The translations under genes were made by a program, and so were the position numbers. Below the pieces are notes generated by a model. The model was given only the letters and a program-made list of their open reading frames with translations. It did no database searches and was not told the origin of the DNA. Source: Pyrinomonadaceae bacterium (GTDB taxonomy: Bacteria; Acidobacteriota; Blastocatellia; Pyrinomonadales; Pyrinomonadaceae). From it: DNA of 64,000 nucleotides. Every line of letters begins with the position of its first letter. Within the stretch, counting starts at the first letter, position 1. The stretch lies in NCBI GenBank assembly GCA_021228405.1, contig JAJQRF010000005.1, positions 186,001 to 250,000 on the forward strand, given 5' to 3'. Below are positions 8,814 through 50,443 of this stretch, piece after piece.

Positions 8814-9128
8814 TCAGAAGGATTTTCAGCTTCAAAAGCCGGTTTTCTTCCTTGCCTGGAAAGATTTCTTCCTTCAAATGCTGTTTTTGTTCCTTCAAAA
8901 GTTACTTTTCGATCTCCAAAAACAGTTTTTGAAGAAACAAAAGTTATAGTTGAAGAAAGGATTATAACTTTTGAAGAAAGGAAAACAGTTTTTGAAGCTG
9001 TGGAAACAGCTTTTCGAGGAAGAAAAGCTAGTTTTGTTCCTTCGATTACTGCTTTTGAAGAAACAAAAACAGCTTTTGAACCTTCGATTACTGCTTTTGA
9101 AGTAAAAAAAACAGCTTTTGAAGGAACA
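8814..9128. repeat. 21-bp tandem repeat array A (15 units)
   Basis: Fifteen consecutive units of exactly 21 bp tile 315 bp without any insertion or deletion. The consensus is a 12-nt half, AAAACAGCTTTT (variants ATTACTGCTTTT, AAAGTTACTTTT), followed by a 9-nt half, usually GAAGAAACA or its near reverse complement GTTCCTTCG. Both halves recur in mixed combinations. Segments near the two ends are inverted copies of each other: 8881-8901 and 9115-9135 match with one mismatch over 21 nt. Because 21 bp is 7 codons, every frame translates as a heptad repeat (e.g. SKAVIEG); I regard this as a by-product. The array fills the gap between convergent corA and pgpA. Confidence 0.9.
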
Positions 9129-9159
9129 AAAGCAGAAAATATATCCTGATTTGCAGGTT

Positions 9160-24340: not shown

Positions 24341-24529
24341 ACCTACAATGTGATTGCATCGCTCTACTTTGTCATCGCACCATTCTACAATCGCTCCGTC
24401 ACGTTCTAATATCGCGCCGCAAATTTCTGCTTTGCCGTTACACGCTTCTACTTTGACACCGCGTCGTTCTACTATCGCTCCGCACTGATTTACTATCGCT
24501 CCGCATCTTTTTACTTTGGCAGTGTTTTT
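24341..24529. repeat. 21-bp tandem repeat array B (9 units)
   Basis: Nine consecutive units of exactly 21 bp. The best conserved part is TTCTACTATCGCTCCG followed by about five variable bases; units differ by TACTTTG against TACTATC and in the last bases. The final unit degenerates after TTTTACTTTGG. The sequence is unrelated to arrays A and C. It occupies most of the 287-bp gap between convergent genes. Confidence 0.85.
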
Positions 24530-32208: not shown

Positions 32209-33885
32209 ATGCAGAGATTTACAATTTTCTTTTCGGCTTTTTTTGCCCTTTTTCTACTGGCGATTTCGGCTCTCCCGCAAAATAAATTTGAAGGCTACAA
32301 CATCATTCTCGACGTGCCCGAAGATCATAAAACGGCGACCTGCACGATTCGCTACGTGCCGCCGACGACCAACATCACGATCTCCGATCTCGACACGAAA
32401 ACGCCGATGCGCGTCCGTTCGTGCGGAACGTCGGGCGCGAGCCTGACGCAAAGCGGTTCGATCGCTTCGATGACGGCGAGCAAAACCGATTACAAATGGT
32501 GTTTCGAGGGCGAGGACAAATCCTACCGCGTTTCGTTTCGCGGCGATCAATCGAGCGGAACGGTCATTTACGATTGGATTCCGAACCGCGAACCGAACGA
32601 ATCGGGCGCGTATAACATCAAGGATTTCGGCGCGAAAGGCGACGGGCGCACCGACGACACGATCGCGATCCAGAGCGCGTTCGCCTATCTCGCCACGCGC
32701 AACGGCGGAACGCTGATCTTTCCCGAAGGCGATTATATGGTCGGCGGAACGGCTAATTACAAAGGATTGATCGTGCCGTCGGGCGTGATAATTCAGGGCA
32801 TCAGCAGTGCCAATTCCAATTCCTACACGAACAACGTCAACCAGAAAAGTCCGAGCCGCATCATCCTGACGGGACGCAGCCGCGCGCTTTTCAAGATCGG
32901 CGAATGCACCGATTCGATCACCATCAAGGACATCGAACTTTACGCGCAGAGCAACGACAATACTTACGGTTTTGAAGCGGTCGGCGCGTTCACTTCGGCG
33001 CAGAATTTCTATTTCGAGCGCGTCGTTTTCAATAATTTCTTTCGCGGCATTTACGGACACGCCCTGCCGATCACGCAGAAAACGTGGCAGTTCGATTACA
33101 TCAAGCTCAATCATTGCCGTTTCATCTACAATCGCGACGCGGGCATCTGGAACGACGTTTCAAACTCCGACTGGAAGATCGAAGGCAGTTTGTTCATCAA
33201 TCCGAAGAAGCAACCCGGACAGAATGCGAATTCGATGCACTTCGAGCGTTCGGCGGCGGTTTTGATTTCCGATACCTACGGCGGCGGTTTTCCGAACGCA
33301 CTCGGCGGAACTTTCCTTGATGTGCTTTCGTCGGGCGTGATTACGATTCTGACCTCGCAGACCGAGAATATGACTAATTCGATCGTTCTGAACGAAGCGA
33401 ACATTCAGGGCGCGGGCGATTATTCCTATCCGCTGACGATCCTGAACAGCATCTTTCACGACCCGATCTTTCTCAATTCGCGCGTGACGCTCGTTTCGAC
33501 GGGTTCGTTTTACGGACCGAAAACCTTCAAATCGAATCCGCTCGTGCGCGTTTATTCGACGGGCGACCGCTTTTGCTACGACGGCGGCATCATCGGCTGT
33601 CAGGGCGCAACGCGCAATCTCTTCGACAAATCGACGATCATTTTTATGACGGGACAGCCGAACGATTTCGGGAAACTGGAAGGTTATCCGACCGTTTTCG
33701 GCACGGACGTGCAGTTTAACGCGCCCGTGCAGATGCCCTCGTTTCCGCAAAATCAACTTCCGGCGGGAAAAGCGAACGGCTCGATGGTGTATTGCCAGAA
33801 CTGCCGCCGCAACACAACCCCGTGTCAGCAAGGCGGAAGCGGCGCGCCCGCAATGATGGTCGGCAATCAATGGAGTTGTTTATAA
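32209..33885 (+). CDS. Secreted pectate-lyase-superfamily beta-helix protein
   Basis: 558 residues with a signal peptide (FAFFALFLLAISALPQ-type core, cleaved near LPQ). An N-terminal beta domain of ~110 residues is followed by the Pectate_lyase_3 signature YNIKDFGAKGDGRTDDTIAIQSAF and GGTLIFPEGDYMVGG. Many short beta-helix coils follow to about residue 500, and the tail has paired Cys (MVYCQNCRRNTTPC). Members of this superfamily cleave or bind polysaccharides, often exopolysaccharide or phage-type substrates. The catalytic residues cannot be fixed from the sequence alone. It is divergent from the ECF sigma operon. Confidence 0.8.
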   Translation: MQRFTIFFSAFFALFLLAISALPQNKFEGYNIILDVPEDHKTATCTIRYVPPTTNITISDLDTKTPMRVRSCGTSGASLTQSGSIASMTASKTDYKWCFEGEDKSYRVSFRGDQSSGTVIYDWIPNREPNESGAYNIKDFGAKGDGRTDDTIAIQSAFAYLATRNGGTLIFPEGDYMVGGTANYKGLIVPSGVIIQGISSANSNSYTNNVNQKSPSRIILTGRSRALFKIGECTDSITIKDIELYAQSNDNTYGFEAVGAFTSAQNFYFERVVFNNFFRGIYGHALPITQKTWQFDYIKLNHCRFIYNRDAGIWNDVSNSDWKIEGSLFINPKKQPGQNANSMHFERSAAVLISDTYGGGFPNALGGTFLDVLSSGVITILTSQTENMTNSIVLNEANIQGAGDYSYPLTILNSIFHDPIFLNSRVTLVSTGSFYGPKTFKSNPLVRVYSTGDRFCYDGGIIGCQGATRNLFDKSTIIFMTGQPNDFGKLEGYPTVFGTDVQFNAPVQMPSFPQNQLPAGKANGSMVYCQNCRRNTTPCQQGGSGAPAMMVGNQWSCL

Positions 33886-33924
33886 AGGATGTTTGATTGG
33901 TTGTTTTGAGAGAGATTTTATAAA

Positions 33925-34197
33925 GGGAAACGGAATGTTTTCCAAGGGAAATGAATCGTTTTAAAAGGGAAACGGTTCATTTCCCTTTTCATATCTTCCG
34001 TTTTAAAAGGGAAACCGTTCGTTTTAAATGGGAAATGAATCGTTTTAAATGGAAAACCGTTCGTTTTAAATGGGAAATGAATCATTTTAAAAGGGAAACG
34101 AACGGTTTCCCTTTTTATATCTTCCGTTTCCCTTGGGAAATGAACGGTTTCCCTTTTCATATCTCCTGTTTCCCTTTTGAAACGATTCATTTTCCTT
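33925..34197. repeat. 21-bp tandem repeat array C (13 units)
   Basis: Thirteen units of exactly 21 bp tile 273 bp without indels; degenerate units extend on both sides. The unit is a dyad: GGGAAA, 7 variable bases, then TTTCCC or TTTTAAA, plus two bases. Left halves are GGGAAATGAATCG, GGGAAACCGTTCG or TTCATATCTTCCG; right halves are TTTTAAAA or TTTCCCTT. Three of the four TTTCCCTT right halves inside the array are followed by the TTCATATC/TTTATATC left half. Both strands stay open and translate as heptads (KTNGFPF and the like). It lies between the convergent beta-helix gene and gyrA. Confidence 0.92.
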
Positions 34198-34253
34198 TTA
34201 CAAGAACAGATTTTGAGGCGAATAAACCTGTCCGCCGATTAATTTTTCTGAAA

Positions 34254-34271
34254 TAACGTCAGTTGACGTTA
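34254..34271. promoter_or_regulatory. Perfect palindrome TAACGTCA-GT-TGACGTTA
   Basis: Eight-base arms with a 2-bp spacer lie between array C and the gyrA terminator. This is the size of a dimeric regulator site, but it is downstream of both flanking genes, so a promoter role is unlikely. Confidence 0.3.
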
Positions 34272-34306
34272 AAATAACCAATTTCTTCTTTTGCCCGCTA
34301 AAAAGA

Positions 34307-34337
34307 AAAAGGGATGAATTTTACATTCATCCCTTTT
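34307..34337. terminator. gyrA terminator (bidirectional)
   Basis: aaaagggatgaat (34307-34319) and attcatccctttt (34325-34337) form a 13-bp perfect stem with a 5-nt loop. It lies 25 bp after the gyrA stop, with A/T runs on both sides. Confidence 0.85.
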
Positions 34338-34365
34338 CCGTTATCAGTTATCCGTTATCACCTAT
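34338..34365. repeat. Heptanucleotide tract at the gyrA stop codon
   Basis: Units on +: ccgttat, cagttat, ccgttat, cacctat. The last one includes the gyrA stop codon (34362-34364), so the tract begins exactly where coding ends and runs to the terminator stem. Confidence 0.65.
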
Positions 34366-36908
34366 TCGTCATCTTCTTCGGTGATTTCGAGCAATGACGC
34401 GCTCGTAACGAGATCGTCTTCGCCGGTGCGGATGAGCATCACGCCCTGCGCCGAACGACCCGTTTCGCGGATTTTGTCAACGCCGAGCCGGATGAGTTTC
34501 GCCTGTTGGGTGATAATCATAATCTCCGAATCTTCGTTGACGGGAAACGCCGCGACGACTTTTCCGGTCTTGTCGGTCGTTTTCATATTGATAACGCCCT
34601 TACCGCCGCGTTTCGTCAGACGGTAATTTAAAACCTGCGTCTGCTTGCCGTAGCCCTGCTCGGAAACGGAAAGTATTTTCTCCGTTCCTTCCGCCGAAAC
34701 CGCGAGCACCGCAACGCAGAAATCGCCTTCGCGCAAGTCCACGCCGCGCACACCGCGTGCGACGCGTCCCATCGGGCGCACGTCGGTTTCCTTGAAACGA
34801 ACCGCCATCCCGTCGTGCGTGGCGATCAAAATCTGCTGTTTGCCGTCGGTTCTGATGACATCGAGCAGTTCGTCGCCTTCGTCGATGTTGATCGCATTGA
34901 TGCCGTTGACGCGGATGTTTTGATAATCAGCCAGCGACGATTTTTTGATAACGCCCTGTTTCGTCACCATCGTCAGATAAGTTTCTTCCGAAAAATCGCG
35001 CACCGGCATCACGGCAACCAGTTTTTTCTCGCTCGAAAGCTGAATCAAGTTGACGACCGCCTTTCCGCGCGCCGACGGGTCGGCTTCGGGAATCTCGTGA
35101 ACCTTCATTTTGAAAACCTGTCCGTCTTCGGTAAAGATCATTAGGTAAGCGTGCGTCGAAGCGATGAAAAGATGTTCGACGAAATCTTCGTTTTTCGCCT
35201 TTGCACCGAGCCGACCTTTGCCGCCGCGTCCCTGTTTCGAGTAGATCGAAACGGGCGTGCGTTTGATGTAGCCCTGATTCGTGACGGTGATCGCCACGTC
35301 TTCGTCGGGAATCAAATCTTCGATGCGAAGTTCGATTCCGGCATCGACGATCTCGGTTTTACGTGCATCGCCGAAGTTCTTTTTGACTTCCTGCAATTCT
35401 TCGATAATGACCTGACGCAAAAGATGTTCGTTCGCCAGAATCGCTTCGAGTTCGGCAATGACTTTCAAGATCGCTTCGAGTTCGTCGATAATTTTCTGAC
35501 GTTCGAGAGCCGAAAGTCTGCGAAGTTGCAGATCGAGAATCGCCTGCGCCTGAATGTCGGTGAAACGAAGTCCGCCGATGACTCTTTCCAAATCCTTCAA
35601 AAAGCCCGCGAGCGTTTTGTCGCTTGCCACGCCTTTCCAGTTTTTGACTTCGTGCAGATTGGCAAATTTGCCCGTCAAAAACTGCTTCGCTTCATCGACC
35701 GAGCGCGAATTGCGAATGAGCGGAATGATGTAATCGAGCGCGTCGATGGCTTTGTTCAAACCTTCCAAAATATGCGCGCGCGCCTGTGCTTTCTTGAGTT
35801 CAAACTCGGTGCGTCGGCGGACGACTTCGCGGCGGAACTCGACAAACGCTTCGAGCATCTGTTTCAGATTCAGGATGCGCGGCTGTCCGTCGATGATCGA
35901 AAGATTGATGATGCCGAACGACGACTGCATCGGCGTTAATTTATAAAGTTTGTTGAGCACGACCTGCGGCACGGCATCGCGTTTGAGTTCGATGACGACG
36001 CGGATTCCCTCGCGGTTCGATTCGTCGCGGATTTCCGAAATGCCGTCGAGTTTTTTCTCGTTGACCAGTTCGGCAATGCGTTCGATCAAACGCGATTTGT
36101 TCAACTGATACGGAATTTCCGTAATGACGACCGCATCCTTTTCACGGTCGCCGCGCCCGATGCGGTCGATTGCCGCCCGCGCCCGCATCTGGATCACGCC
36201 GCGTCCTTCGCGGTAGGCGCGGTGAATCTCTTCACGTCCGTAAATAAAACCGCCCGTCGGGAAATCGGGTCCCGGAACGATCTTGATAAGTTCGTCGATC
36301 GAAATTTCGGGCTTTTTGACGAGCGCGATGGTCGCTTCGAGAATTTCCGTCAGATTATGCGGCGGAATCTTGGAAGCCATCCCGACCGCGATTCCTTCCG
36401 AACCGTTGACGAGCAGATTCGGAATGCGCGTCGGCAAAACCGAAGGCTCGGAAAGCGATTCGTCGTAGTTCGGGATAAAATCGACGGTTTCCTTTTCGAT
36501 GTCGGCAAGCACGTCGTTCGTCAGTTTCGCCATACGGACTTCCGTATAACGCATCGCCGCCGCGTTGTCGCCATCAATCGAGCCGAAATTTCCCTGCCCG
36601 TCAACGAGCGGATAGCGCATCGAAAAATCCTGCGCGAGCCGAACGACCGTTCCGTAAACCGATTGGTCGCCGTGCGGGTGATATTTTCCTATGCAGTCTC
36701 CTACCACACGAGCCGATTTTTTGTAGGCTTTGTTGTATGTGTTGCCGAGTTCGTGCATCGCCCATAACACGCGGCGGTGAACGGGTTTCAGCCCGTCACG
36801 CACGTCCGGCAGAGCGCGTCCGACGATCACCGACATAGCATAGTCGAGATACGAACGCCGCATTTCATCTTCGATATTAATCTGATTGCGTTCTAAAATG
36901 TTGTCCAT
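34362..36908 (-). CDS. gyrA: DNA gyrase subunit A
   Basis: 848 residues. N-terminal breakage-reunion domain with catalytic Tyr121 in MRYTEVRM and the usual [14 protein letters not shown] and GKYHPHGD segments. The coiled-coil arm follows, and then a C-terminal beta-pinwheel opened by a GyrA-box variant (SKQGRGGKG). The box identifies it as gyrase rather than ParC. In the quinolone-resistance region the residue equivalent to E. coli Ser83 is Gln82 and that equivalent to Asp87 is Gly86 ([10 protein letters not shown]). The gene stands alone, with no gyrB nearby. Confidence 0.96.

Positions 36909-50408: not shown

Positions 50409-50443
<35 letters not shown>

Follow-up and report, generated by a model that had tools for sequence, protein, structure and literature searches.

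Results

Location and layout of array C

The window, i.e., the whole stretch of 64,000 nucleotides that was analysed (G000:C2:186001-250000), belongs to a genome of 5.72 Mb that is 96% complete, and the relatives of its gyrA, with identities of up to 89%, are Acidobacteriota of the Pyrinomonadaceae/Blastocatellia group. A pectate-lyase-like gene (Pect-lyase_RHGA_epim; 32209-33885, + strand) and gyrA (848 aa; 34362-36908, - strand, 3' end at 34362) converge on a gap of 476 bp. Array C lies in this gap downstream of both genes, at 33912-34199 (no strand is assigned to it, nor to the other arrays, dyads and modules below), 27 bp from the 3' end of the pectate-lyase-like gene. A terminator-like hairpin of gyrA (34305-34339, - strand) is located between gyrA and array C.

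Array C is dyad-symmetric and comprises about 13 units, which differ from their consensus at a mean of 6-7 positions per unit. The 13 units counted in the first-pass annotation were recovered as the 13 rows of a 21-bp layout, each exactly 21 bp long and free of indels; a cyclic profile alignment of 33912-34199 likewise required no indel, and Tandem Repeats Finder placed the repeat at 33916-34199 with periods of 21, 42, and 63 and scores up to 195. Consecutive 21-mers abut directly, unlike the repeats of CRISPR arrays, which are separated by unique spacers.

Words, dyads, and the switch module

The GGGAAA-N7-TTTCCC dyads described earlier are present as three exact copies, i.e., GGGAAA-CGGTTCA-TTTCCC at 33967-33985, GGGAAA-CGAACGG-TTTCCC at 34093-34111, and GGGAAA-TGAACGG-TTTCCC at 34135-34153. 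The second, with its flanking AAAA/TTTT, makes a stem of 11 bp that runs into T-rich DNA and is terminator-like on the + strand. Sites of the form GGGAAA-N5-9-TTTCCC number 10 in the 5.72-Mb genome, three of them in array C and one in a paralogous array, compared with a single site genome-wide for the reversed control pattern, and the dyads in array C are therefore not due to chance. The unit profile of array C was dyad-symmetric as a whole (z 5.7, p 0.001, 1000 column permutations), and the reverse complement of a unit agreed with the other units at 77% in a single register, compared with a median of 38% over registers.

The word TTTCCCTT occurs five times (33980, 34106, 34127, 34148, and 34169), TTTTAAA six times (33959, 34001, 34022, 34043, 34064, and 34085), and TT[C/T]ATATC three times (33988, 34114, and 34156). 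The half types and their order had been described correctly, as the TTCATATC-type (ATATC) half directly follows TTTCCCTT in all three cases; the converse fails, TTTCCCTT being followed also by GGGAAA (once) and by TTGAAAC (once). The switch module takes the forms TTTCCCTTTTCATATCTTCCG (33980-34000), read as an inverted standard word, TTTCCCTTTTTATATCTTCCG (34106-34126), and TTTCCCTTTTCATATCTCCTG (34148-34168). Reverse-complemented, the standard word TTTTAAAAGGGAAA reads TTTCCCTTTTAAAA; TTTCCCTTTTCATATC is identical to this in its first ten letters and has diverged in the remainder. The 7-bp spacers are also present as exact inverses: CCGTTCG (34015-34021, again at 34057) recurs as CGAACGG at 34099-34105, and CGATTCA (34183-34189) is the inverse of TGAATCG at 33952 and 34036. 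At a larger scale, the outer left arm (33944-33973, + strand) and the outer right arm (34168-34197, - strand) share 93% identity over 30 bp, one being compared with the reverse complement of the other; in the predicted fold they pair as the outermost of the long stems. From the letters, inversion in register is the preferred reading of the switch module.

A genome-wide class of 20-21 bp arrays

When the window and 20 further stretches, some of the latter chosen around hits, were scanned by autocorrelation, many period-21 arrays with differing units appeared. In an unselected sample, made up of 400 kb from each of contigs C4 and C18 and chosen regardless of hits, 26 non-coding arrays of period 20-21 were found, about one per 31 kb, from which approximately 185 arrays per genome were estimated by extrapolation. 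Over all stretches, amounting to 1.26 Mb of this genome, the period was 20 or 21 in 44 of 58 non-coding periodic arrays. The class has a common geometry, with a pitch of 20-21 bp, dyads about every 10.5 bp in most arrays, a length of 100-360 bp, and a sequence that is mostly locus-specific. Among 43 aligned non-coding arrays, period 20 fitted better than 21 in seven and several others mixed the two, as expected for two helical turns but not for codons. In these 43 arrays 25% of positions were off the array consensus, with 2231 substitutions versus 30 indels over 8801 positions, a ratio inflated by the counting of block changes as substitutions and obtained with a detector that favours phase-keeping arrays. 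Most of the indels were of one base, and 22 of the 30 were confined to six arrays.

Units were mostly unrelated between arrays and only some pairs were alike, for example array C with C5:36.9k (73%) and with C4:423.8k, three related arrays that have a GGGAAA-type word in common, and L157:3658 with L252:2950 (85%). Two further arrays of period 21 occupy convergent gaps in the window: array A (8816-9140; dyad z 5.1), which flips orientation part-way along, and array B (24367-24520), which is without dyad symmetry (z -0.6). Five non-coding arrays of the same genome have a period of 14, two thirds of 21, and a perfect heptamer repeat, (AAATGGA)4.7, is found at 50409-50441 of the window.

Symmetry, helix geometry, and genomic context

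Dyad symmetry reached p <= 0.016 in 18 of 29 arrays (Stouffer z 13 over the 29), was lacking in about a third of arrays, array B being an example, and was absent from the in-gene control array L167. Over arrays, the best reverse-complement register gave 64% identity versus a median of 35%. A period of 21 with one dyad register implies axes every 10.5 bp, on one face of B-DNA. Runs of A/T showed excess power at 10.5 bp (z 4.4), a value of light weight in that the column permutation used for comparison also strips ordinary A/T clustering, and the predicted bend exceeded that of other intergenic DNA modestly (122 versus 99 degrees).

Gap types were assigned with a gene finder based simply on hexamers. 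Convergent gaps accounted for 16 arrays (88 such gaps in the background), tandem gaps for 22 (452), and divergent gaps for 2 (97). The enrichment in convergent and depletion in divergent gaps held even when gaps were weighted by their length in base pairs (p 0.0004).

Relatives and other genomes

The DNA of array C had no match in 59 related genomes. The first-pass annotation had tied its reading to the presence of the array in close relatives; in G019, the nearest genome with the same gene pair, the orthologous gyrA/pectate-lyase gap (identical in sequence to L056) measures about 180 bp and holds no array. This absence is evidence against a regulatory site conserved at gyrA and leaves the reality of the class untouched. 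Clear non-coding arrays of 20-21 bp were likewise absent from samples of 40-125 kb each from eleven other genera (G002, G005, G008, G013, G016, G019, G020, G021, G022, G041, and G043), and the gyrA loci sampled from other phyla (457 kb) yielded no array of period 20 or 21. One weak 21-bp stretch was seen in G019 (L195:15634) and one array with a 22-bp period in G020 (L229:13485-13672, 86% lag identity). In G023, another genus of the family, 33 kb of sampled sequence contained two 21-bp arrays (L223:3368-3659 and L226:5073-5357), one of them dyad-symmetric.

A repeat distinct from the 21-bp class was also encountered, as GC-rich hairpin arrays with CGGCTCTGCCG-type words and a period of 41 or 62-63 (L141:10822-10960 and L192:13723-14025 (G002)), a similar hairpin word being found in two genera. 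Of the genes counted as candidates for a binding protein, none tracked the arrays: HU-family genes numbered three in every genome tested, with or without arrays, and archaeal-type histones were found in none of the genomes tested. Matches to Y1_Tnp (RAYT-type) numbered nine in this genome and were similarly numerous where samples showed no arrays.

Discussion

Probable origin and possible role of the arrays

Array C may belong to a class of palindromic minisatellites in helical phase that is spread over the genome and specific to the lineage, a reading to which we give a probability of about 0.5. The pattern as a whole suggests that DNA shape or errors of copying, and not the switching of a single gene, underlie the arrays. 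The arrays probably originated by tandem duplication combined with inverted-repeat template switching, the component of this reading that we hold with somewhat better than even confidence. Arrays would grow as segments of about two helical turns are duplicated in tandem, and switching of the polymerase template between nearby inverted repeats would flip or homogenise words. Arms homogenised and spacers inverted in this way would account for the switch module, which would then be a replaced block; in array C, the inverted spacers and words agree with the signature of template switching. Template switching alone leaves the fixed pitch of 20-21 bp unexplained, and a separate ruler is therefore needed. 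A ruler of two helical turns would most likely be supplied by DNA architecture, i.e., by supercoiling or protein wrapping of the DNA, or by a symmetric dimer that binds at intervals of one or two turns.

An architectural function, considered on its own, is possible but doubtful. The likeliest function, put forward tentatively, would be that of sequence-tolerant stretches at gene 3' ends for docking or for the buffering of supercoils. The arrays might also conceivably constitute a separate class of chromosomal element, about 200 per genome, which a nucleoid protein or a topoisomerase, for instance, would recognise at gene 3' ends by shape or symmetry and not by sequence; we regard this too as a minority reading.

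The absence of any function is a near rival of the architectural role, and we hold it to be equally tentative. The arrays would then be neutral or selfish satellites, generated by a mutational ruler of about 21 bp and by template switching, with selection doing nothing beyond clearing them from genes and promoters. Their restriction to one lineage, the empty orthologous gyrA gap, and the difference in sequence at most loci all suit such satellites, and tolerance would give the same placement. However, the indels are few for the divergence of the units and the A/T runs are phased at 10.5 bp, which suggest some phase constraint.

Elements acting as RNA at 3' ends, i.e., long transcribed hairpins that terminate transcription or protect the 3' ends of mRNA, are an improbable explanation of the class. 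The first-pass annotation had offered a multi-stem RNA as one of its readings, and the fold is physically possible: the + strand RNA of array C folded at -118 kcal/mol versus -68 for shuffles (z -10), and many arrays folded better as RNA than their column-permuted copies. The arrays also lie on the 3' side of genes, and array C contains a terminator-like stem at 34089-34115. Matches to the intrinsic terminator pattern, a GC-containing stem with a T run after it, numbered two on the + strand of the array and 3 in the region, versus 1.4 in shuffles. By raw energies the sense strand was favoured in 17 of 22 tandem-gap arrays, and G-U prevailed over A-C mismatches in 11 arrays versus 2. However, after the dinucleotide-shuffle control the sense strand was the more structured in 12 of the 22 (p 0.31) and the energy difference vanished, so that action at the level of RNA was not supported. 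Strand-symmetric dyads suffice to explain the folding, and gyrA already has its own terminator-like hairpin. Equal structure on both strands best places the symmetry at the level of DNA, array C being a possible exception in its bias to the + strand (z -11.7, against -6.7 on the - strand), which is the strand of the pectate-lyase-like gene. A search of Rfam over 33500-34700 returned sub-threshold matches, none at the gathering score.

The other reading offered at first, a ladder of operators to which one particular repressor or activator would bind, is very unlikely. The ordered, modular composition of array C, its dyads, and their helical spacing were all confirmed, and dyads repeated at two-turn spacing, with a GGGAAA-type word in the three related arrays, are what such a ladder would show; its assignment to gyrA was not upheld. 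The hairpin of gyrA itself intervenes, some 185 such arrays with other sequences are estimated for the genome, and the orthologous gap in G019 is empty. Furthermore, the words mostly differ between arrays, and divergent gaps, where promoters would lie, are avoided, array C itself lying beyond the 3' ends of both its neighbours. Whether the geometry is selected or purely mutational, an individual array like array C ought not to be annotated as a regulator of gyrA.

Coding of short heptad-repeat proteins (21 bp being seven codons) is largely refuted, for although open frames of 90 aa (- strand) and 101 aa (+ strand) cross array C and 51 open frames occurred in 32 arrays versus 34 in column permutations, the difference in codon-position variability was -0.002 in the arrays versus 0.46 in the coding array L167, the hexamer coding scores of the array C frames were -26 and -24, no Pfam match was found, and period-20 arrays exist. 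Arrays of 21 bp were observed within predicted genes at L167:14311-14491, which varies at third codon positions and looks coding, at L150:8015-8322, which may be coding, and at L237:9609-9872. Capture of some of the arrays might have given rise to heptad-repeat proteins.

If the geometry is selected, the arrays would be natural test pieces for the roles of helical phase and dyad symmetry in chromosome organisation at gene ends, irrespective of any particular sequence. If it is purely mutational, a duplication ruler of two helical turns would operate with template switching throughout the genome of one lineage and hardly in its relatives, and the process could be dated and mapped.

Comparison with known repeat systems

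The kind of element to which the arrays belong, i.e., intergenic palindromic repeats and minisatellites, is already known. In the literature searched, which was confined to open-licence papers and so gives weak evidence of novelty, no description of locus-specific sequence combined with uniform geometry was found.

Iteron or centromere-like arrays consist of direct repeats of about 20-22 bp in helical phase, and iterons have one sequence, one Rep protein, and one or a few loci. In contrast, the arrays reported here number an estimated 185 or so and have many sequences. PARCELs resemble them as tandem repeats with dyad symmetry that are dispersed in the genome; however, PARCELs encode a protein repeat of 25 residues, whereas the present arrays are non-coding, have units of 20-21 bp, and give no codon-position signal.

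Template switching in quasipalindromes is known to homogenise arms and invert spacers between nearby inverted repeats (PMC8604942, PMC7202029), and the block changes in array C are of this type. It is, however, a process of single sites and not an array class, and it sets no 21-bp pitch.

REPs occur between convergent or unidirectional genes and rarely between divergent ones, and form clusters in opposite orientations (PMC3733652). The arrays described here show the same gap preference (16/22/2) and are likewise palindromic (dyad z 13), intergenic, present in many copies per genome, and placed on the 3' sides of genes, as REP/BIME elements are. They differ in that a REP family has one sequence and a GTAG or CGTC tag, whereas most arrays here are unrelated in sequence and keep a pitch of 20-21 bp; neither strand of array C carries such a tag.

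Bacterial minisatellites or VNTRs and the tandem repeats of Borgs are, like the present arrays, local tandem arrays that are lineage-specific (PMC9879509). The arrays of this genome are set apart by the dominance of one period class throughout the genome, by strongly diverged units that stay in phase, and by the common occurrence of dyads.
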